This document shows, piece by piece, positions 4,743 to 23,779 of a stretch of 24,110 bases of DNA. This DNA comes from a bacterium (lineage in GTDB: Bacteria > T1Sed10-126), in the NCBI GenBank assembly GCA_003554945.1, contig PWHN01000021.1:1-24110 (forward strand), given 5' to 3'. The translations under genes were made by a program, and so were the position numbers. The number at the start of each line of letters is the position of its first letter. Position 1 is the stretch's first letter. The notes under the pieces were generated by a model. The model saw nothing but the letters and a program-made list of their open reading frames with translations. It did no database searches and was not told the origin of the DNA.

Positions 4743-4817
4743 TGGAGATAGTTTAACTAATCCGTAACCGTTTAGCGGCTCCGGGGTGTTGTGGGATTGA
4801 ATGTCATTGTGGACTCC

Positions 4818-4983
4818 GATCCGCAATCCATTATTCGATATTTTCGGTTACTGTTCAACATCTCAATCGGGACGACCAAAAGCCCAAGATGGATTCCCGC
4901 TTCCGCGGGAATGACATTCAAGACCTCACGGTCGTCGTTATCGGGACATCATTTGTTCCAAGAATGACAGTGAAGGCGCTAAA
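4818..4983 (-). repeat. composite intergenic repeat, copy A
   Basis: This stretch is an inverted copy of sequence at 20452-20739. Bases 4818-4897 match the reverse complement of 20660-20739 at 74 of 80 positions. Bases 4893-4983 match the reverse complement of 20452-20542 at about 76 of 91. The two blocks are contiguous here but separated by 117 bp in the other copy. It includes the palindrome 4893-4900/4905-4912. Confidence 0.85.
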
Positions 4984-6712: not shown

Positions 6713-6808
6713 GCAACTTTTTAACTTTCACACTTTGCAACTTTTTAACTTTCACACTTTGCAACTTTTTAACTTTCACACTTTGCAACTTTTTAACTTT
6801 CACACTCT
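6713..6808 (+). repeat. 24-bp tandem repeat, four copies, upstream of rnc
   Basis: Four consecutive 24-bp units start at 6713, 6737, 6761 and 6785, each beginning GCAACTTTTTAACTTTCACA. The first three are identical and the fourth differs only in its last bases. The array ends 17 bases before the rnc ATG, so it lies in the rnc leader or promoter region. Identity between units points to recent slippage expansion. The reverse strand is open through the array (a repeating SVKVKKLQ), but I regard that as chance. Confidence 0.95.
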
Positions 6809-6825: not shown

Positions 6826-7530
6826 ATGGCACTTACGGACAATCAATTAATTGAAAAGCTCAAGGAGAGGTTCGATTTCCCGGTTGAGGAGAACTATTCT
6901 GTTTTTCTTGAAGCCTTTACTCATCGCAGCTACCGTAATGAAAACAATCTCGATTACGATAATGAACGGCTTGAATTCCTTGGAGACGCCATCCTTGAGC
7001 TTCTTGTTGGCGAATTTCTGTTTAAAAATTTTCCCGAGGCGCGCGAAGGACGTCTCTCTAAAATAAAAAGTGCTGTAGTAAACACCGCTTCCCTCAGTAA
7101 CATTGCTCGCCGGCTTGATTTTGATCAGTATCTGCGACTGGGTTTGGGCGAAGAAAAGGCTAATCGCGGTCTGCGTCGCGAACGTGCCGACGTTGTTGAA
7201 TCATTCACTGCCGCGCTTTATCTCACCGTGGGGCTGCAGGAGACTCGACAGTTTATCATGCCCTACCTGGAGGATGAGGTTGAACGATATTTGTCCGAGG
7301 GCAGCCGTAATTTTAAAGGACGTCTGTTGGAAGCTGTTCAGCAGCGCTGGGACGATCCCCCGACTTATCACGTAAAATCTGTAAAAGGGCCCGAACATGC
7401 GCCCCGTTATAATGTCGTAGTGAAAGTTAACGGGGAAGTCTATGCTGACGGTTCTGGAGCAAATAAAAAGGAGGCCGAACAGGAGGCGGCCCGCCGCGCA
7501 CTTAAACAGTTCGAACCTGATGAGAGCTAA
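6826..7530 (+). CDS. rnc: ribonuclease III
   Basis: 234 residues with an RNase III domain followed by a double-stranded-RNA-binding domain (about 157-230). It cleaves double-stranded RNA in ribosomal RNA processing and mRNA turnover. The signature NERLEFLGDA supplies E47, E50 and D54; D122 and E125 in ADVVESFTAALYL complete the metal site. In the last motif the usual Gly-Ala and trailing Asp are Ala-Ala and Thr, a mild deviation. The ribosome-binding site AAGGAAA (6813-6819) precedes ATG 6826. It overlaps aroA by 11 bases. rnc after fabF is a common arrangement. Confidence 0.96.
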   Translation: MALTDNQLIEKLKERFDFPVEENYSVFLEAFTHRSYRNENNLDYDNERLEFLGDAILELLVGEFLFKNFPEAREGRLSKIKSAVVNTASLSNIARRLDFDQYLRLGLGEEKANRGLRRERADVVESFTAALYLTVGLQETRQFIMPYLEDEVERYLSEGSRNFKGRLLEAVQQRWDDPPTYHVKSVKGPEHAPRYNVVVKVNGEVYADGSGANKKEAEQEAARRALKQFEPDES

Positions 7531-8824
7531 GTTTGAATCACCCTCCTGTCTTGCCGGTTCTTTAAGAGTCCCCGCTTCTAAGTCTTATACCCACCGTGCA
7601 TTAATTGCTGCAGCTCTGCTTGTCGGTGGGCGCGTCCATCACCCTCTGAAAGCTGAGGATACGGTCGCCACCCGGGAGGCTATTAGTGCGTTTGGTGTTA
7701 AAGTCAGTGACACCGGCACAGGTTTTGACATTAAGGCGCCAGCCCGGCCACAACTCACTGCAGATAGAATAAATACCGGTGAAAGTGGCACCCTGCTTCG
7801 TTTTCTGGCCCCGATTTGTTCCGTAATCCCCGGACCCGAAAAAGTTGTTCTTGAAGCGAAAGGAACTTTACTATCCCGTTCTCATGAGGAGCTGGTCAGG
7901 ACTCTGCGGGACAATGGATTTAAAATCGAAGCGACCGGTTCACAGGCTACTGCCCCCTTGACCTGTTTCCCCGGCCAAAAATTACCGCAGTCGCCCCTTA
8001 AATTAACTGCTGAAACCACCAGCCAGCACCTCTCGGGCTGGCTTATTGCGCTCGCTTTTTCGGGCGGCGGAGAAATCGAGCTCGCTGGTGAACCGGTAAG
8101 TGCACCTTATGTGGAGATGACCGCCCGTCTTCTCCGTCGGGCCGGGGTCTCTGTTGAAACTCCTGAACCAAATCACTACCGGGTAACTCCCAATCAACTA
8201 AAACCGCTTGATTACGAAGTGCCCGGCGACTATAGCTCCGCCGCCTTCCATATTATTGGTTCTCTTTTGACGGAAGGTAAGCTTGAACTGCAGGGCCTGG
8301 TCCCCGACGATCCTCAGGCCGACCGCCAAATTATTTCTCTGCTCGCTAACTTTGGTGCCCCGGTTGCCTGGCAGGGTAGTAGTTCCAATTCCTCGCTTGA
8401 AGTGCGCGGCCCGTTTCGTCCCCCTAATTTTCACTACGATGCCGGCGCCTGCCCCGATCTTGTGCCGGTACTTGCAGTATTTGCCGCCTTTGCTTCCGGG
8501 GAAGAGGTAGTTCTTGAAAATATTGCTCATCTAAAAAATAAGGAGAGCGATCGGCTGGCGGCCACCTGTACCGAGTTAAACAAAACTGCTGCCACAGCTC
8601 GGGCCAGTGCTGATAAATTAATAATTAAACCGCCATCAGGAAATTTTTCGGAAGAAAAAATTGTTTTTAATACATACGGCGACCACCGCATAGCTATGGC
8701 TTTTTCTATTTTTGCTCTTGTCCGGGGAAATTGTGAGCTGACCGGTGTCGAGTGCGTTAGCAAGTCTTATCCCAATTTTTACGACCATTTGAAAGAGCTG
8801 GGCGTAAACTTTGACTTGCTCTGA
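7520..8824 (+). CDS. aroA: 3-phosphoshikimate 1-carboxyvinyltransferase (EPSP synthase)
   Basis: 434 residues from ATG 7520, overlapping the end of rnc by 11 bases. It joins phosphoenolpyruvate to shikimate-3-phosphate in aromatic amino-acid synthesis. Visible active-site segments are SLRVPASKSYTHRA (K21, S22, R26), GESGTLLRF (88-95), D313 in CPDLVP, KNKESDR (E342, R345), TYGDHRIAM (D388-R390) and K415. A GTG-free frame continues upstream to 7442, but the family N-terminus fits the ATG at 7520. I see no good ribosome-binding site, so it probably depends on coupling to rnc. aroA in a fatty-acid/rnc operon is uncommon. Confidence 0.94.
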   Translation: MRAKFESPSCLAGSLRVPASKSYTHRALIAAALLVGGRVHHPLKAEDTVATREAISAFGVKVSDTGTGFDIKAPARPQLTADRINTGESGTLLRFLAPICSVIPGPEKVVLEAKGTLLSRSHEELVRTLRDNGFKIEATGSQATAPLTCFPGQKLPQSPLKLTAETTSQHLSGWLIALAFSGGGEIELAGEPVSAPYVEMTARLLRRAGVSVETPEPNHYRVTPNQLKPLDYEVPGDYSSAAFHIIGSLLTEGKLELQGLVPDDPQADRQIISLLANFGAPVAWQGSSSNSSLEVRGPFRPPNFHYDAGACPDLVPVLAVFAAFASGEEVVLENIAHLKNKESDRLAATCTELNKTAATARASADKLIIKPPSGNFSEEKIVFNTYGDHRIAMAFSIFALVRGNCELTGVECVSKSYPNFYDHLKELGVNFDLL

Positions 8825-8881: not shown

Positions 8882-8904
8882 GATGAATTCCGGTTCAAGG
8901 CCTG

Positions 8905-8950
8905 CCCTTGAACTTGACGTCATCCCGGCCCCCGAGCCGGGATCCATCTT
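8905..8950 (+). repeat. palindromic repeat of the CGTCAT...ATCCA family
   Basis: The flanks CTTGAACTTGACGTC and CATCTTGA enclose the stem ATCCCGGC/GCCGGGAT (8922-8929 and 8936-8943). The same flanks and stem recur at 13824-13870 in the same direction, and in inverted form near 19711-19750. Confidence 0.8.
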
Positions 8951-8989
8951 GATTTTGACGTGGTTATTCGTTCAAAACACAAGAAGTTG

Positions 8990-10680: not shown

Positions 10681-10712
10681 TGTCATTCCCGCGGAAGCGG
10701 GAATCCAGCGAC
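10681..10712 (+). repeat. palindromic repeat between nfnA and nfnB
   Basis: ATTCCCGC (10685-10692) and GCGGGAAT (10697-10704) with flanks TGTC and CCAGCG. The same palindrome lies in inverted orientation at 4893-4912. It occupies the 116-bp gap between two genes of one complex and may act as an mRNA stability or attenuation hairpin there. Confidence 0.75.
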
Positions 10713-13787: not shown

Positions 13788-13823
13788 TCAAATTCATCAA
13801 GTGCTCATAATCTTGTTCATGCT

Positions 13824-13870
13824 CTTGAACTTGACGTCATCCCGGCCTACGAGCCGGGATCCATCTTGAA
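13824..13870 (+). repeat. palindromic repeat of the CGTCAT...ATCCA family
   Basis: Stem ATCCCGGC (13839-13846) with GCCGGGAT (13853-13860), with the same CTTGAACTTGACGTC and CATCTTGA flanks as the copy at 8905-8950. A decayed partial copy lies just upstream at 13709-13745. Confidence 0.8.
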
Positions 13871-13933
13871 CTTGACCTTGATTTTCGGTCTTGCGCATCT
13901 TCGCCTGCTCGCAAGCTCGCCTCTTCGATCTTT

Positions 13934-14000: not shown

Positions 14001-14084
14001 GAAAACTAAAAACTATAAACTGAAAACTGAAAACTGAAAACTGATAACTGAAAACTAAAAACTAGAAACTGAAAACTGAAAACT
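14001..14084 (+). repeat. heptamer array, twelve GAAAACT-like units
   Basis: Twelve 7-base units in perfect register, mostly GAAAACT with variants AAAAACT, ATAAACT, GATAACT and AGAAACT. The array ends 42 bases before the recG start. Shorter pieces of the same pattern occur at about 19903-19922 and 20427-20444. Confidence 0.95.
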
Positions 14085-14126: not shown

Positions 14127-16433
14127 TTGCTAAAAGGAAAAGAACAATTAACCGAACTCTTTGCCGCAGTCCGTAAGCAGCTCGTCTCATCGGCGGACAG
14201 GGAAGAGTGGGGGACCAGTATCGAGCCCCTTTTAAAAACGCCCGATGATGGTTCGGATTCGGCTCTCTGGTCCGCTCTTGAAGAACTCCTTAAAAAATAC
14301 GTCAGCTTCGGCGAAGAAAAATTTTTATGGGAAGCTGTTGCCCGTCTTGCCCGCTTGAGTGACTGGTATCTGTCCCGTCCGGTTACCATTATCTCCGGTG
14401 TCGGCAAGAAGCGCGCCGAAAAACTTGCTAACCTGGGAATAGAAACGGTTGCTGACTTATTGCACCATTATCCCCGCGCTTATACCGACCGCCGCTACGT
14501 CGATCAAATAGCCGATGTCGATGAAGTAAAATATTATACCCTCTATGGCGAGGTCTTATCCGTTCAGGTCGTTCGCGGCCGCAATCCCCGGCTTGAAGTT
14601 CGTCTCGGTGACGACAGTGGCAGTATCCGGGTTAATTTCTGGAATCAGACGTACCTCGCCGACAAATTTACACGGGGAACTAAACTCTTCTGTTTCGGGC
14701 GGGCGGATTTCTACCGCGGCCGTCCGCAGCTTAATAACCCCGAGTTTGAAATTATTGGTTCGCCGGAAAAACTTGATGAGTCTCGCTCAATAATGCCCGT
14801 TTATCCGCTCTCCGAGGGTCTTTCTCAGCGTCGCCTCCGCAGTTGGTTGGCGCGCGCCCTTGACTTTGGCCGCCCGTTGTTAACCGATTCGTTGCCCGCT
14901 GATTTGCGTCGGGAAAACGAGCTTCCACCTCGCCCCTGGAGTATACGTAATCTTCACGAACCCGAAACTGTTGTCGCCCTTGAACAGGCCCGCAAGCGTC
15001 TTATATTTGAAGAATTTTTCTATTTCCAACTCATATTTGCCCTCCATAACTGGAACGTAGAAACCATATCTAAAGGCCGAGAATATACCGCGGCCGAGCA
15101 GCGTGACCGCTTTGTCGACAGTCTACCCTTTGAGTTGACCGGCGATCAGCATCAGGTTCTGGCGGAGATTGAGTCCGATCTTTGTGACAGCGCTCCCGTT
15201 CACCGGCTACTGCAGGGCGATGTCGGCACCGGGAAAACGGTGGTTGCGCTTGCTGCTATCCTGCGGGTAATCGACAGTGGCTATCAGGCTGCTCTCATGG
15301 CGCCCACCGAGGTGCTGGCTGAACAGCACTACCGGACAGCCTCTGAACTGCTGAACGGTATCAAATGCAGCTATGAGCGGCTCACCGGCAGCCTTTCCGC
15401 GCCCAAAAAAGAGACGGTCCGTCACCGGCTTAACTCAGGCGAACTTGATCTTGTTATTGGTACTCACGCCCTTATCCAGGAAGGAGTCGATTTTTCTCGT
15501 CTGGGCTTTATCGTCGTTGATGAACAGCACCGTTTTGGTGTCGATCAGCGGCGCCGCCTGCGTGAGAAGGGCCCCTCTGTCGATATGCTGATTATGTCGG
15601 CGACCCCAATACCCCGCAGTCTCGCGATGACGGCTTATGGTGACCTGGAGGTTAGTACCCTCGAGGAGTTTCCTCTCCAACGCCGCCGGGTTCAAACCAG
15701 GGTGCTGGATCGCACTGCCCCAAATCGACGGCAAGTTTATGAGCATGTCCGCCAGTTAGCCCGTGAAGATTGCCGCAGCTTTTTTATTTTTCCGGCGATT
15801 GAAAAAAATGAGTCGACTGAACTTACCGCTGCCGAAGATGCCTTCCAGAGGGCTCAATCATCTGAACTTTTTGCCGGTCTTGGGCTCGGACTTTTACACG
15901 GCCGCCTGGATTCAGAGGAAAAAAAATCTGTAATGGACCGTTTTCGTCGCGGAGAAATACAGGTGCTATTTTCCACTACTGTTGTTGAAGTTGGGGTCGA
16001 CGTTCCCGAAGCCAGTTGTCTCGTTGTTTTTGAAGCCGAACGTTTTGGACTCGCTCAACTTCATCAGCTTCGCGGAAGAATTGGGCGTGCCGGTCAGCAG
16101 GCCTACTGCTATCTCTTCCTGAACCAGGCTGTGGCCCCCGGTTCCCGGGAGCGTCTCCAGGTGCTGGAACGCACTGACGATGGTTTCCAGGTTGCCCGCC
16201 GCGACCTTCAGTTCCGCGGTATTGGCTCGCCTACCGGGACTGAACAGTCCGGCTGGGGAGAGTTTGAAATAGGTAATGTCTGGGAAGACCGCGAGATAAT
16301 GAGCGCCGCCCGCTCCGCCGCCGAAAAACTGGTCGCCTCAACGAATGGCCTCGACGCCCCCCGTCTGGCCCTCCTCAACCAAAAATTACACTCCACTTAC
16401 GCCGACCAACTCCAATTCGCCCGCATAGGCTAA
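14127..16433 (+). CDS. recG: ATP-dependent DNA helicase RecG
   Basis: 768 residues from TTG 14127, with GAGG (14113-14116) 10 bases upstream. RecG remodels stalled forks and branch-migrates Holliday junctions. The first 80 residues are a poorly conserved extension; the wedge/OB domain follows with GVGKKRAEKLANLGI (91-105). Helicase motifs are GDVGTGKT (364-371), DEQHRFG (465-471), SATPIPRSLA (491-500) and QLRGRIGRAGQQAYC near 650. The segment usually reading RGPG-LGTRQSG is FRGIGSPTGTEQSGWGEF here, a modest departure. The stop is three bases before the left end of the Y1 element; without that element glgB would lie almost directly downstream. Confidence 0.95.
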   Translation: MLKGKEQLTELFAAVRKQLVSSADREEWGTSIEPLLKTPDDGSDSALWSALEELLKKYVSFGEEKFLWEAVARLARLSDWYLSRPVTIISGVGKKRAEKLANLGIETVADLLHHYPRAYTDRRYVDQIADVDEVKYYTLYGEVLSVQVVRGRNPRLEVRLGDDSGSIRVNFWNQTYLADKFTRGTKLFCFGRADFYRGRPQLNNPEFEIIGSPEKLDESRSIMPVYPLSEGLSQRRLRSWLARALDFGRPLLTDSLPADLRRENELPPRPWSIRNLHEPETVVALEQARKRLIFEEFFYFQLIFALHNWNVETISKGREYTAAEQRDRFVDSLPFELTGDQHQVLAEIESDLCDSAPVHRLLQGDVGTGKTVVALAAILRVIDSGYQAALMAPTEVLAEQHYRTASELLNGIKCSYERLTGSLSAPKKETVRHRLNSGELDLVIGTHALIQEGVDFSRLGFIVVDEQHRFGVDQRRRLREKGPSVDMLIMSATPIPRSLAMTAYGDLEVSTLEEFPLQRRRVQTRVLDRTAPNRRQVYEHVRQLAREDCRSFFIFPAIEKNESTELTAAEDAFQRAQSSELFAGLGLGLLHGRLDSEEKKSVMDRFRRGEIQVLFSTTVVEVGVDVPEASCLVVFEAERFGLAQLHQLRGRIGRAGQQAYCYLFLNQAVAPGSRERLQVLERTDDGFQVARRDLQFRGIGSPTGTEQSGWGEFEIGNVWEDREIMSAARSAAEKLVASTNGLDAPRLALLNQKLHSTYADQLQFARIG

Positions 16434-16436
16434 CAT

Positions 16437-16461
16437 TACCTCGGAGGTTGAAAGTTTGAAA
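16437..16461 (+). repeat. left inverted repeat of the Y1 element
   Basis: Perfect 25-base match in reverse to 17350-17374. It begins with the near-palindrome ACCTCGGAGGT and continues with GTTTGAAA. Confidence 0.95.
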
Positions 16462-16484
16462 GTTTAGTATAAAATCTTGTTACT

Positions 16485-17345
16485 ATGGCTTATCCAGTTA
16501 GGTTGTTTAAACCCGGTTATTGGTATCATGTCTTTACTCGCGGTCAACGAAAGGAACCGCTATTTTTCTCACCCGTGGATCGGATTGCGTACCTATCATT
16601 TCTTGACCATGAATTTTACAGAAATGATGCTCGCCTTGGTTCTTATTGTTTGATGGTTAATCACCTGCATTTATTGGTTCGTATGGGTGAGGTTCCGCTG
16701 GGAGATATTTTTCAAACTGTTCATATGAAATATGCGAGGTATTTCAATAAAAAACGTGATACTGTCGGACATGTTTTCCAGGGCCGGCCTGGTATGAAAA
16801 TAGTCTTAAAAGATGATTATTTACAGCAGCTTGTTATTTATATACATAATAATCCTGTGGAGGCAAATTTGGTTCAAAAACCATTACAATACGATTGGAG
16901 TTCGTGGCACTGGTTTTGTAATGGTAGAATAACTGAAATTAGAACCGCCGAGTATCCGCCAGGCTTTACGGATCAAAACCGTGGTCCGCGTTTTATGAAT
17001 TTGTTAAAATCTGATTTTACACTATCAGGCGATAAGAATTATTGGGGTACTTCTGAACAGTGGGATGAGATTGAACGTCGAAAGTCAGGGCGGGAGGGCA
17101 GAAAATTTAGAGAAAAACGTGGAAAGTCTTCCCTGGGTGAAATTGCTCAGCAGGTCAGTGACCAATTTGAAATTGAGATAGATATGTTGAAGAGTAATTC
17201 TCAAAAAACTGAAATAGTAGCAGCTCGAAGGGAAGCAATGGGACGAATGTATGAAGAAGGCTATGGACCAACTGAGATTGGTAAATTTTTCAATCAAACT
17301 CCCAGTTCCGTAGTACACGCTTATGAAAAATGGATAAAAACATAA
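16485..17345 (+). CDS. REP-associated-type tyrosine (Y1, HUH) transposase with DnaA-like C-terminus
   Basis: 286 residues. The N-terminal 130 residues are a Y1 transposase: the HUH pair is H60/H62 in LMVNHLHLLVRM, and the probable nucleophile is Y119 in VIYIHNNPVEANLV (Y112 is the alternative). Such enzymes nick and rejoin single-stranded DNA at hairpins. After a charged linker (about 190-235), residues 240-284 (AARREAMGRMYEEGYGPTEIGKFFNQTPSSVVHAYEKW) resemble the DNA-binding domain IV of DnaA. No Shine-Dalgarno sequence precedes ATG 16485; TATAAA at 16468-16473 lies close to it. It appears intact. Group assignment within the REP-associated transposases is uncertain. Confidence 0.88.
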   Translation: MAYPVRLFKPGYWYHVFTRGQRKEPLFFSPVDRIAYLSFLDHEFYRNDARLGSYCLMVNHLHLLVRMGEVPLGDIFQTVHMKYARYFNKKRDTVGHVFQGRPGMKIVLKDDYLQQLVIYIHNNPVEANLVQKPLQYDWSSWHWFCNGRITEIRTAEYPPGFTDQNRGPRFMNLLKSDFTLSGDKNYWGTSEQWDEIERRKSGREGRKFREKRGKSSLGEIAQQVSDQFEIEIDMLKSNSQKTEIVAARREAMGRMYEEGYGPTEIGKFFNQTPSSVVHAYEKWIKT

Positions 17346-17349
17346 AGAT

Positions 17350-17374
17350 TTTCAAACTTTCAACCTCCGAGGTA
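17350..17374 (-). repeat. right inverted repeat of the Y1 element, carrying the glgB ribosome-binding site
   Basis: Exact reverse complement of 16437-16461. Its outer bases GAGGT (17369-17373) lie 8 bases before the glgB ATG and are the only Shine-Dalgarno-like sequence there. Confidence 0.9.
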
Positions 17375-17381
17375 AAATATT

Positions 17382-19571
<2,190 letters not shown>

Positions 19572-19656
19572 CTAATGTTGCCAGTTTCCAGTTTAAAGTT
19601 TCAATGTAAGTGTTTAGCGTCCCCACTGTAATTGTGAGCTTGATCGAATGATCGTC

Positions 19657-19678
19657 ATTGCGGACCACGATCCGCAAT
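19657..19678 (+). repeat. palindromic repeat ATTGCGGA/TCCGCAAT
   Basis: Stem 19657-19664 with 19671-19678, preceded by CGTC and followed by CCATTTTTA. A longer 13-bp version lies at 20725-20756. Confidence 0.8.
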
Positions 19679-19710
19679 CCATTTTTACGGTTTTGAACGA
19701 TAACCGCTTA

Positions 19711-19750
19711 AAAATCAAGATGGATTCCGGCTCGGAGGCCGGAATGACGT
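19711..19750 (-). repeat. palindromic repeat, inverted copy
   Basis: Stem ATTCCGGC (19724-19731) with GCCGGAAT (19738-19745). The flanks ATCAAGATGG and GACGTCAA are the reverse complements of those at 8905-8950. The core differs from that copy on both arms together. Confidence 0.8.
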
Positions 19751-19838
19751 CAAATTCAAACTGGTTTCCGGGTCGTTCGCCCGAAACAACGGACCCCGGG
19801 ATATTTAGTTAGGATCACGCTAAACAAGTACGTTTCAA

Positions 19839-20451: not shown

Positions 20452-20739
20452 TTTAGTGTCTTCACTGCCATTCCCGGAACGAATGAGTTCCCGGTAACGG
20501 CGACCGGGAGGTCTTGAACGTCATTCCCGTGTAAACGGGAATCCAGCGGAAGTTCAGTGTTCGGTAATCGGTAGTCGGTGATCGGTAACTTCGGTAGTTC
20601 AACATCAAGGTCAACGTCAAAGCCACTGGATTGCCCGGGCAAGCCGGGCAATGACGACCGGAATCCATCTTGGGCTTTTAGTCGTCCCGGTTGAGATGTT
20701 GAACGGTAACCGGGAATAACGAATAATGGATTGCGGATC
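20452..20739 (+). repeat. composite intergenic repeat, copy D (with insertion)
   Basis: The outer blocks 20452-20542 and 20660-20739 match copy A (4818-4983) in reverse. The central 117 bp (20543-20659) is absent from copy A; it carries the TCGGTRR heptamers and a 9-bp-stem palindrome. The sequence GGATTCC (in reverse) lies at both joints. Confidence 0.85.
20561..20588 (+). repeat. heptamer array, four TCGGTRR units
   Basis: TCGGTAA, TCGGTAG, TCGGTGA and TCGGTAA in perfect 7-base register. Confidence 0.85.
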
Positions 20740-20760
20740 GTGGTCCGCAATCCATTTTTA
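20725..20760 (+). repeat. 13-bp-stem palindrome followed by T-run
   Basis: AATGGATTGCGGA (20725-20737) pairs perfectly with TCCGCAATCCATT (20744-20756), then TTTA follows. The layout could terminate transcription coming from arsR, before the flavoprotein gene. Confidence 0.7.
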
Positions 20761-22900: not shown

Positions 22901-23779
22901 CTATAACTCCTGGGCAAGCTTCATAAATTCTTGGGCGTCATCTAAGTCTCGTTGAAATTCTTTGACAATTACGTCGAAGTCGTCCTTGTCGATTTCCAGC
23001 GCCTTAAAAACCCTGTCGTCAACCAGCACACCAATTTTGTCGCCCGTCCAGCCGATCCCCTTGGCTCTTACAATTTTTTCGCCGGCGTAGACAAGTAGCG
23101 GAAACATTTGTACCTCCGGCGGAGCCGAAAATGGTTCGTGATAATAGCCCAGTCCGGCTATTGCTGCTTCCGGTAAATCCCAGCTTTCAGCCAGCCAGCG
23201 TCCCATCTCCGGGTCACGAAATCCTAAAATCTCCTCTTCCGCCGCTAACAGACTGCAGCCTTTATCGTGAGCATACTCCACTGCCTCCTTCAACTCGGAA
23301 CGGAAGTAAAGGGCCAGTATTAGAGTACCGAGCATATGCAGCAGGCCGCCGATCATGGCGTCTTCAGCCTGTGGGAAGCGGATTCTTCGTCCCGTAGTTT
23401 CTGTAGCAATACCCGTTGCAATTGATTTTTCCCACAGTCCTACCAAATCAATGTCCGTCTCTTTCAAATCCCCACTTACCTTGTCCCGGGTAATTGTCAG
23501 GACGGACGCGCCGACGGCCAGGTTGCGCACCGTATTAAAACCGAGGTAAACAACGGCGTCGCGGACGTTCTCTATACGCCGGTTCAGGCCGTAGTAAGCG
23601 CTGTTGATCAGTTTTAACACTTTTGCTGTCAGCGAAGGATCATTGACTAAAATTTTCTCTATTTCTCTGGCTGAGGCATCTGGTGAATCGAGTGCAGCAA
23701 GCAGACGCGGGATTACCGGTGGGAGTGAGGGAAGATCACTTATCTGACTTACCATGCGTTGAAAATTTTCTTTGCTCAT
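22901..23779 (-). CDS. HDOD-domain signalling protein
   Basis: 292 residues on the - strand. Residues 14-215 form an HDOD domain: the opening DLPSLPPVIPRLL, ILVNDPSLTAKVLKLINSAYYG (43-64) and AVVYLGFNTVRNLAVG (75-90) are diagnostic. HDOD proteins are non-catalytic relatives of HD phosphohydrolases and act in signalling, motility, stress or cell-cycle control. No output domain is fused. The Shine-Dalgarno GGTGAG lies 4 bases before the ATG. It converges with cheD; both families are common in motility networks, but the link is only suggestive. Confidence 0.9.
   Translation of the reverse strand: MSKENFQRMVSQISDLPSLPPVIPRLLAALDSPDASAREIEKILVNDPSLTAKVLKLINSAYYGLNRRIENVRDAVVYLGFNTVRNLAVGASVLTITRDKVSGDLKETDIDLVGLWEKSIATGIATETTGRRIRFPQAEDAMIGGLLHMLGTLILALYFRSELKEAVEYAHDKGCSLLAAEEEILGFRDPEMGRWLAESWDLPEAAIAGLGYYHEPFSAPPEVQMFPLLVYAGEKIVRAKGIGWTGDKIGVLVDDRVFKALEIDKDDFDVIVKEFQRDLDDAQEFMKLAQEL

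Follow-up and report, generated by a model that had tools for sequence, protein, structure and literature searches.

The window, i.e., the whole 24,110-nt stretch of DNA that was analyzed, contains recG, which ends at position 16433, and glgB, which starts at position 17382, with a gene for a 286-aa Y1 (HUH) transposase between them (Table 1). This gene is enclosed by two 26-nt arms that are 100% complementary to each other and lie 888 nt apart. The arm pair scores 26, compared to a maximum of 12 among 30 shuffles of the same flanks, which is far beyond chance. The boundary of the left arm was set by analogy with a related pair of elements (C83/G001, see below), whose homology starts at CCTCGG. 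Perfect inverted ends had already been described in the first-pass annotation of this sequence, and its 25-bp length and coordinates were right to within a base. The 10-base recG-glgB junction that it proposed is exactly what is left once positions 16437 to 17374 are removed. In the only same-family genome compared (G001), recG is followed by an ArsR-type gene, and glgB is absent from that place; no recG-glgB junction lacking the element was found.

Table 1. Features of the element between recG and glgB (positions in the window)
Feature	Position	Strand	Evidence or remark
Left arm (TIR)	16436..16461	+	26/26 complementary to 17350-17375; solo copies
Outer box ACCTCGGAGGT	16438-16448	+	Part of left arm
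Inner word TTGAAAGT, period 8, 2.2 copies	16448..16465	+	p=0.002; TRF
Promoter-like TTGAAA-16-TAAAAT, 10/12	16448..16475	+	Single match, not above chance alone
Y1 (HUH) transposase gene, 286 aa, TIRYT type	16485..17345	+	ORF and domain matches
Y1_Tnp domain, aa 12-123	16518..16853	+	Pfam 6.8e-07
HUH motif NHLH, aa 59-62	16659..16670	+	Both H invariant in 19 homologs
Candidate catalytic tyrosine Y119 in YIHNNP	16839..16841	+	Invariant in 19 homologs; class 2 Y---NP motif
DnaA domain IV-like HTH, aa 219-282	17139..17330	+	Pfam Bac_DnaA_C 6.7e-09; PDB DnaA matches
Right arm (TIR)	17350..17375	-	26/26 complementary to left arm
GAGGT of right arm tip	17369..17373	+	Read from sequence; putative ribosome-binding site

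Six bases separate the end of the right arm from the glgB ATG. Because the tip of this arm puts GAGGT 8 nt upstream of that ATG, the element may supply the putative ribosome-binding site of glgB. The Y1 domain of the transposase matches PDB entry 4er8, and the protein is recognized by the NCBIfam model REP_Tyr_transpos at 5.7e-14, under the curated cut-off of 80 bits. Structure prediction was confident for the HTH part only, the Y1 part being modelled poorly; in Foldseek, the HTH aligned with DnaA domain IV at an rmsd of 0.8 but with an E value of about 0.1.

Y1 transposases that combine an HTH tail with long terminal inverted repeats (TIRs) were described in 2013 as TIRtrons/TIRYTs (Di Nocera et al., PMC3733652, available text), and most TIRtrons were classed in 2018 as TnpAY1 subclass 2.1 (Quentin et al., PMC6006769, available text). 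The suggestion of a distinct element family in the first-pass annotation is therefore not upheld. Its separation of the ends from the CGTCAT-type palindromes of the window agrees with a comparison within the window. At least two types of CGTC-tagged palindrome are found there, at positions 4795-4836, 8903-8973, 13820-13890, 19646-19759, 20660-20751, 4890-4916, 10681-10707, and 20520-20548; according to the available text of PMC3733652, no dedicated transposase is known for the CGTC-tagged REP superfamily. A 292-aa ORF encoded on the minus strand at 22901-23779 had no NCBIfam match.

Related elements and solo arms

Homolog loci were taken from 59 and then from 386 genomes, with just 3 genomes of the G040 phylum to draw relatives from; TIRYTs were present in 130 of the 386. 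An inverted pair with a score of at least 16 was detected at 81% of the 125 genes with complete flanks, as opposed to 1.3% with swapped flanks and 0% with shuffled ones, and in a larger set, TIRs with such scores accompanied 108 of the 136 HTH-bearing homologs (79%). The share of genes with TIRs ranges from 79 to 86%, varying with the sample and the score threshold, and about 15 to 20% of homologs lack a TIR by inverted-pair scoring. The view that long TIRs are dispensable for Y1 transposases, from which the first-pass annotation started, holds for IS200/IS605 but not for subclass 2.1, given these frequencies.

The extent of the mobile unit was assessed in 26 pairs of relatives with >60% identity. 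In 7 of the 10 closest pairs (at least 65% amino acid identity), homology ends no more than 8 nt from both arm tips, and one pair, 98% identical, resides inside a single genome (G299). The C83 paralog of the window's transposase has an ortholog in G001 with 77% identity over 206 aa; the DNA homology between the two loci covers 646 nt, starts from the CCTCGG tip of the arm, and gives way to unrelated flanks, and none of the ORFs beyond it is matched in the paralog loci. At the junctions of related elements, no target duplication is visible, and there is no target-site preference beyond A/T at the two positions just outside the tips. All these boundary comparisons concern related elements, with the window's own copy outside them. 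Because the flanks of the nearest related pairs are unrelated and their homology reaches no further than the arm tips, the gene together with its ends is the mobile unit, which is what the first-pass annotation had supposed. In G001, an inverted half arm precedes the left arm (L087, 3936-3964), and the joint AACAACTTTACCTCGGAGGTAAAGTTGTT is a 13-bp perfect hairpin with the loop CGG.

Solo arms of the window element were searched for with a 20-base pattern allowing up to 3 mismatches, which matched both element arms and other sites; those with at most 2 mismatches were counted as solo. The end of the window element was found without the gene at no fewer than 7 other sites in the genome (controls, 0 forward and 1 reverse), so it does recur elsewhere; its absence elsewhere, together with the same gene in the same place in every relative, was what the first-pass annotation would have taken as the mark of a resident gene. 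The window's transposase gene itself is present in a single copy. Five paralogs, at 25 to 51% identity, each have inverted arms of their own (25 to 38 bp, 87 to 100% complementary), and every one of these arm families has solo copies elsewhere in the genome. Taken together, the six arm families include at least about 45 solo arms versus 16 gene-flanking ones, with a total of 2 hits in the reversed-pattern controls; the solo-arm counts are lower bounds because they come from pattern searches. Within the stretches inspected, most solo arms sit between ORFs. Direct tandem pairs of arms also occur, such as those of the C94 family at a spacing of 28 to 34 bases, and an inverted arm pair was seen once, on C57.

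Build of the arms and the transposase domains

The arms are bipartite and consist of an outer box, usually GGGGTCAG, and an inner word of 7 to 8 bp that is repeated head to tail. This build emerged from 92 distinct arms, collected across many genomes and anchored on a GGGGTCAG-like box; the window element, with the outer box ACCTCGGAGG, is missing from this set because its divergent box fell under the anchor threshold. Covariation was measured by matches between columns i and i+d within elements, compared with those between elements. Copies of the word covary within the element only at offsets 7 (z 5.9) and 8 (z 6.0), and weakly at 9. The 7-8 peak is absent outside the arms and in the gene body, the baseline of the outside regions being raised to z of about 1 to 3. 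Individually, the head-to-tail repeat is significant (p<0.05) in 49 of the 92 arms.

The -35-like hexamer of the promoter-like match in the window falls inside the inner word. Across the 92 elements, promoter scores are higher for the left arm than for the right (p of about 1e-5), and the -10 region beats its own shuffle (p=0.007).

Tandem repeats of similar period are found elsewhere as well. The window contains an octamer minisatellite, AACTTTTT, with 10.8 copies at 6713-6806, and a heptamer one, GAAAACT, with 12 copies at 14001-14084. In another part of the genome (G000:C120, L184, 8388-8459), a GAAAGTTG minisatellite of 7.5 copies grows from the inner word of a solo arm of the E16 family.

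The two parts of the arm appear to follow different domains of the transposase. Similarity of the outer box correlates with Y1 identity given HTH (partial Mantel 0.55) and not with HTH given Y1 (-0.04). Similarity of the word correlates with HTH at 0.16 to 0.20 given Y1, with Y1 at 0.06 to 0.09 given HTH (p 0.05 to 0.08), and with the interdomain linker, used as a control, at 0.01 to 0.06 given Y1. An earlier, smaller set gave, by one metric, a correlation of 0.118 (p=0.036) for the word and Y1 given HTH; in subsamples of 70% from the smaller set, the excess of HTH over Y1 for the word was retained in 76% of cases and that of Y1 over HTH for the box in all. Mantel shuffles ignore shared ancestry, and kinship partly remains in these correlations. 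The link of the outer box to the Y1 domain is solid, and that of the inner word to the HTH is suggestive and weaker. Whether this amounts to a general rule for TIRtrons is about an even bet: Y1 would read the outer box, the HTH would read an element-specific word of 7 to 8 bp, and an exchange of the HTH would change the arms that are recognized. If such a two-module rule is true, several TIRtrons could share one genome without cross-talk.

Probable mechanism and its alternatives

The window element belongs to the TIRtron kind, and its outer box is divergent. The best explanation of the data, to which we give a probability of roughly 0.7, is a TIRYT-type Y1 transposase acting on two identical inverted arms, with the HTH bound to the word and Y1 working at the tip. 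A Y1 dimer would use its HTH tails to bind both copies of the word in each arm, which would bring the Y1 tyrosine to the outer box. At the tip, this tyrosine would cut and rejoin one DNA strand, presumably on single-stranded DNA at a fork, and the transfer could involve the element as a whole or just one arm, with no duplication of the target. The left word may in some members double as the -35 element of the transposase promoter, so that HTH binding would limit the expression of the transposase itself.

An alternative in which the gene is resident and domesticated and no longer moves, the solo arms being old leftovers or host regulatory sites, would fit the presence of a single gene copy with the next paralog only 51% identical, as well as the near absence of the family from plasmids (1 of 72,556) and its absence from phages (0 of 50,697) in searches with one query. 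It is nevertheless unlikely in view of the related elements whose flanks are unrelated and whose homology stops at the tips, among them the nearly identical pair in one genome, and of the solo arms in six families. It also seems improbable that the repeated word, instead of being a protein site, serves as a promoter -35 box or arose from heptamer/octamer minisatellites. The consensus word does resemble TTGACA, left arms give better promoters than right ones, and heptamer/octamer minisatellites are abundant in the genome, including those with a period of 7-8 that occur in the window and on C120, one of which grows from a solo arm. However, the word is kept in both arms and in solo arms, its covariation is limited to the arm interior at offsets 7-8 in many genomes, and its similarity increases with that of the HTH.

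The Y1 domain would also be compatible with a hairpin-end mechanism of the IS200/IS605 or REP type, in which each arm would adopt a single-stranded fold, with the HTH incidental; a 4-bp stem is possible within ACCTCGGAGGT, and the back-to-back half arm in G001 makes a perfect hairpin. Against it, the single-strand fold of the window arm reaches only -1.3 kcal/mol, the E14 and E79 arms have no fold, the 92 arms give no signal of self-complementarity, and neither GTAG nor GTGG occurs in either window arm. Such a mechanism is thus very unlikely here.

Known systems and genome neighborhoods

The TIRtron interpretation agrees with the available text of PMC3733652 in the RAYT-like Y1 gene between long inverted repeats that bear no relation to GTAG REPs, in the dispersal of the repeats singly, in dimers, or in groups (reported there for some members), and in the coexistence of several TIRYTs per genome with differing TIRs. 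The TIR motif GGGGWSAS of the same text, which is common but not defining, is replaced by ACCTCGGAGG in the window element and by GGGGTCAG-like boxes in most relatives; a further difference is that the six TIRtrons residing together in this genome each have their own solo arms. With TnpAY1 subclass 2.1, as characterized in the available text of PMC6006769, the element shares the Y---NP tyrosine motif, NHxH, and a C-terminal DnaA-like HTH and, likewise, is without REP hairpins; the C-terminal Bac_DnaA_C/HTH domain expected for subclass 2.1.2 was detected at 6.7e-09 (aa 219-282). That text left open the role of the DnaA-like tail, suggesting that it might have no direct contact with the target or might have come to recognize a new one, and the present data favor recognition of a new target. 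The make-up of the ends, including the inner repeated word, is not described in the available texts of PMC3733652 and PMC6006769, nor are the head-to-tail word and the links of box to Y1 and of word to HTH in that of PMC3733652.

REPtrons (RAYT-REP, E. coli TnpAREP) have a related Y1 domain, that of PDB 4er8, and short ends scattered without the gene; the window element differs from them in having no GT[AG]G-tagged hairpin, in its bipartite inverted-repeat ends, and in the extra HTH domain. Y1 HUH chemistry can be expected as in IS200/IS605, and no target duplication was seen in either case. In contrast to those elements, the window element has long TIRs instead of subterminal hairpins, consistent with the weak fold of its arm, and the paralogs in this genome are at most 51% identical rather than near-identical copies. 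TIRYTs are widespread, as the survey above indicates, and the available texts of PMC3733652 and PMC6006769 describe no activity tests. The repeated word offers a concrete and cheap target for probing what the DnaA-like tail does, and the division of box to Y1 and word to HTH, if true, would make these elements a naturally occurring case of modular recognition in single-strand transposition.

Several neighborhoods of the arms in the genome under study (G000) deserve mention. On C4 (L180), solo arms of the E16, E14, E103, and E94 families alternate with small gene pairs, one with DUF4258 and one with a weak match to the MqsA antitoxin. On C110 (L181) and C103 (L182), up to four families are represented by solo arms that lie in the same orientation between ordinary genes and adjoin longer shared stretches of about 60 to 70 nt. 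A cassette array on C4, C110, and C103 was considered and rejected: the solo arms there are located between ordinary genes (NfeD, band-7, symporter, gcvT, and AbiEii), and the genes between the arms on C4 are toxin-antitoxin-like pairs. In the region 5353-7928 of C103, the TIRtron is flanked by a gcvT-like gene (6834-7928) and by other genes of the same strand, including a glycine dehydrogenase-like one; this is another insertion between codirectional genes, apparently inside a glycine cleavage operon. Finally, at L251 (G151:C34:51700-55000), two TIRYT-type genes adjoin each other on one strand.
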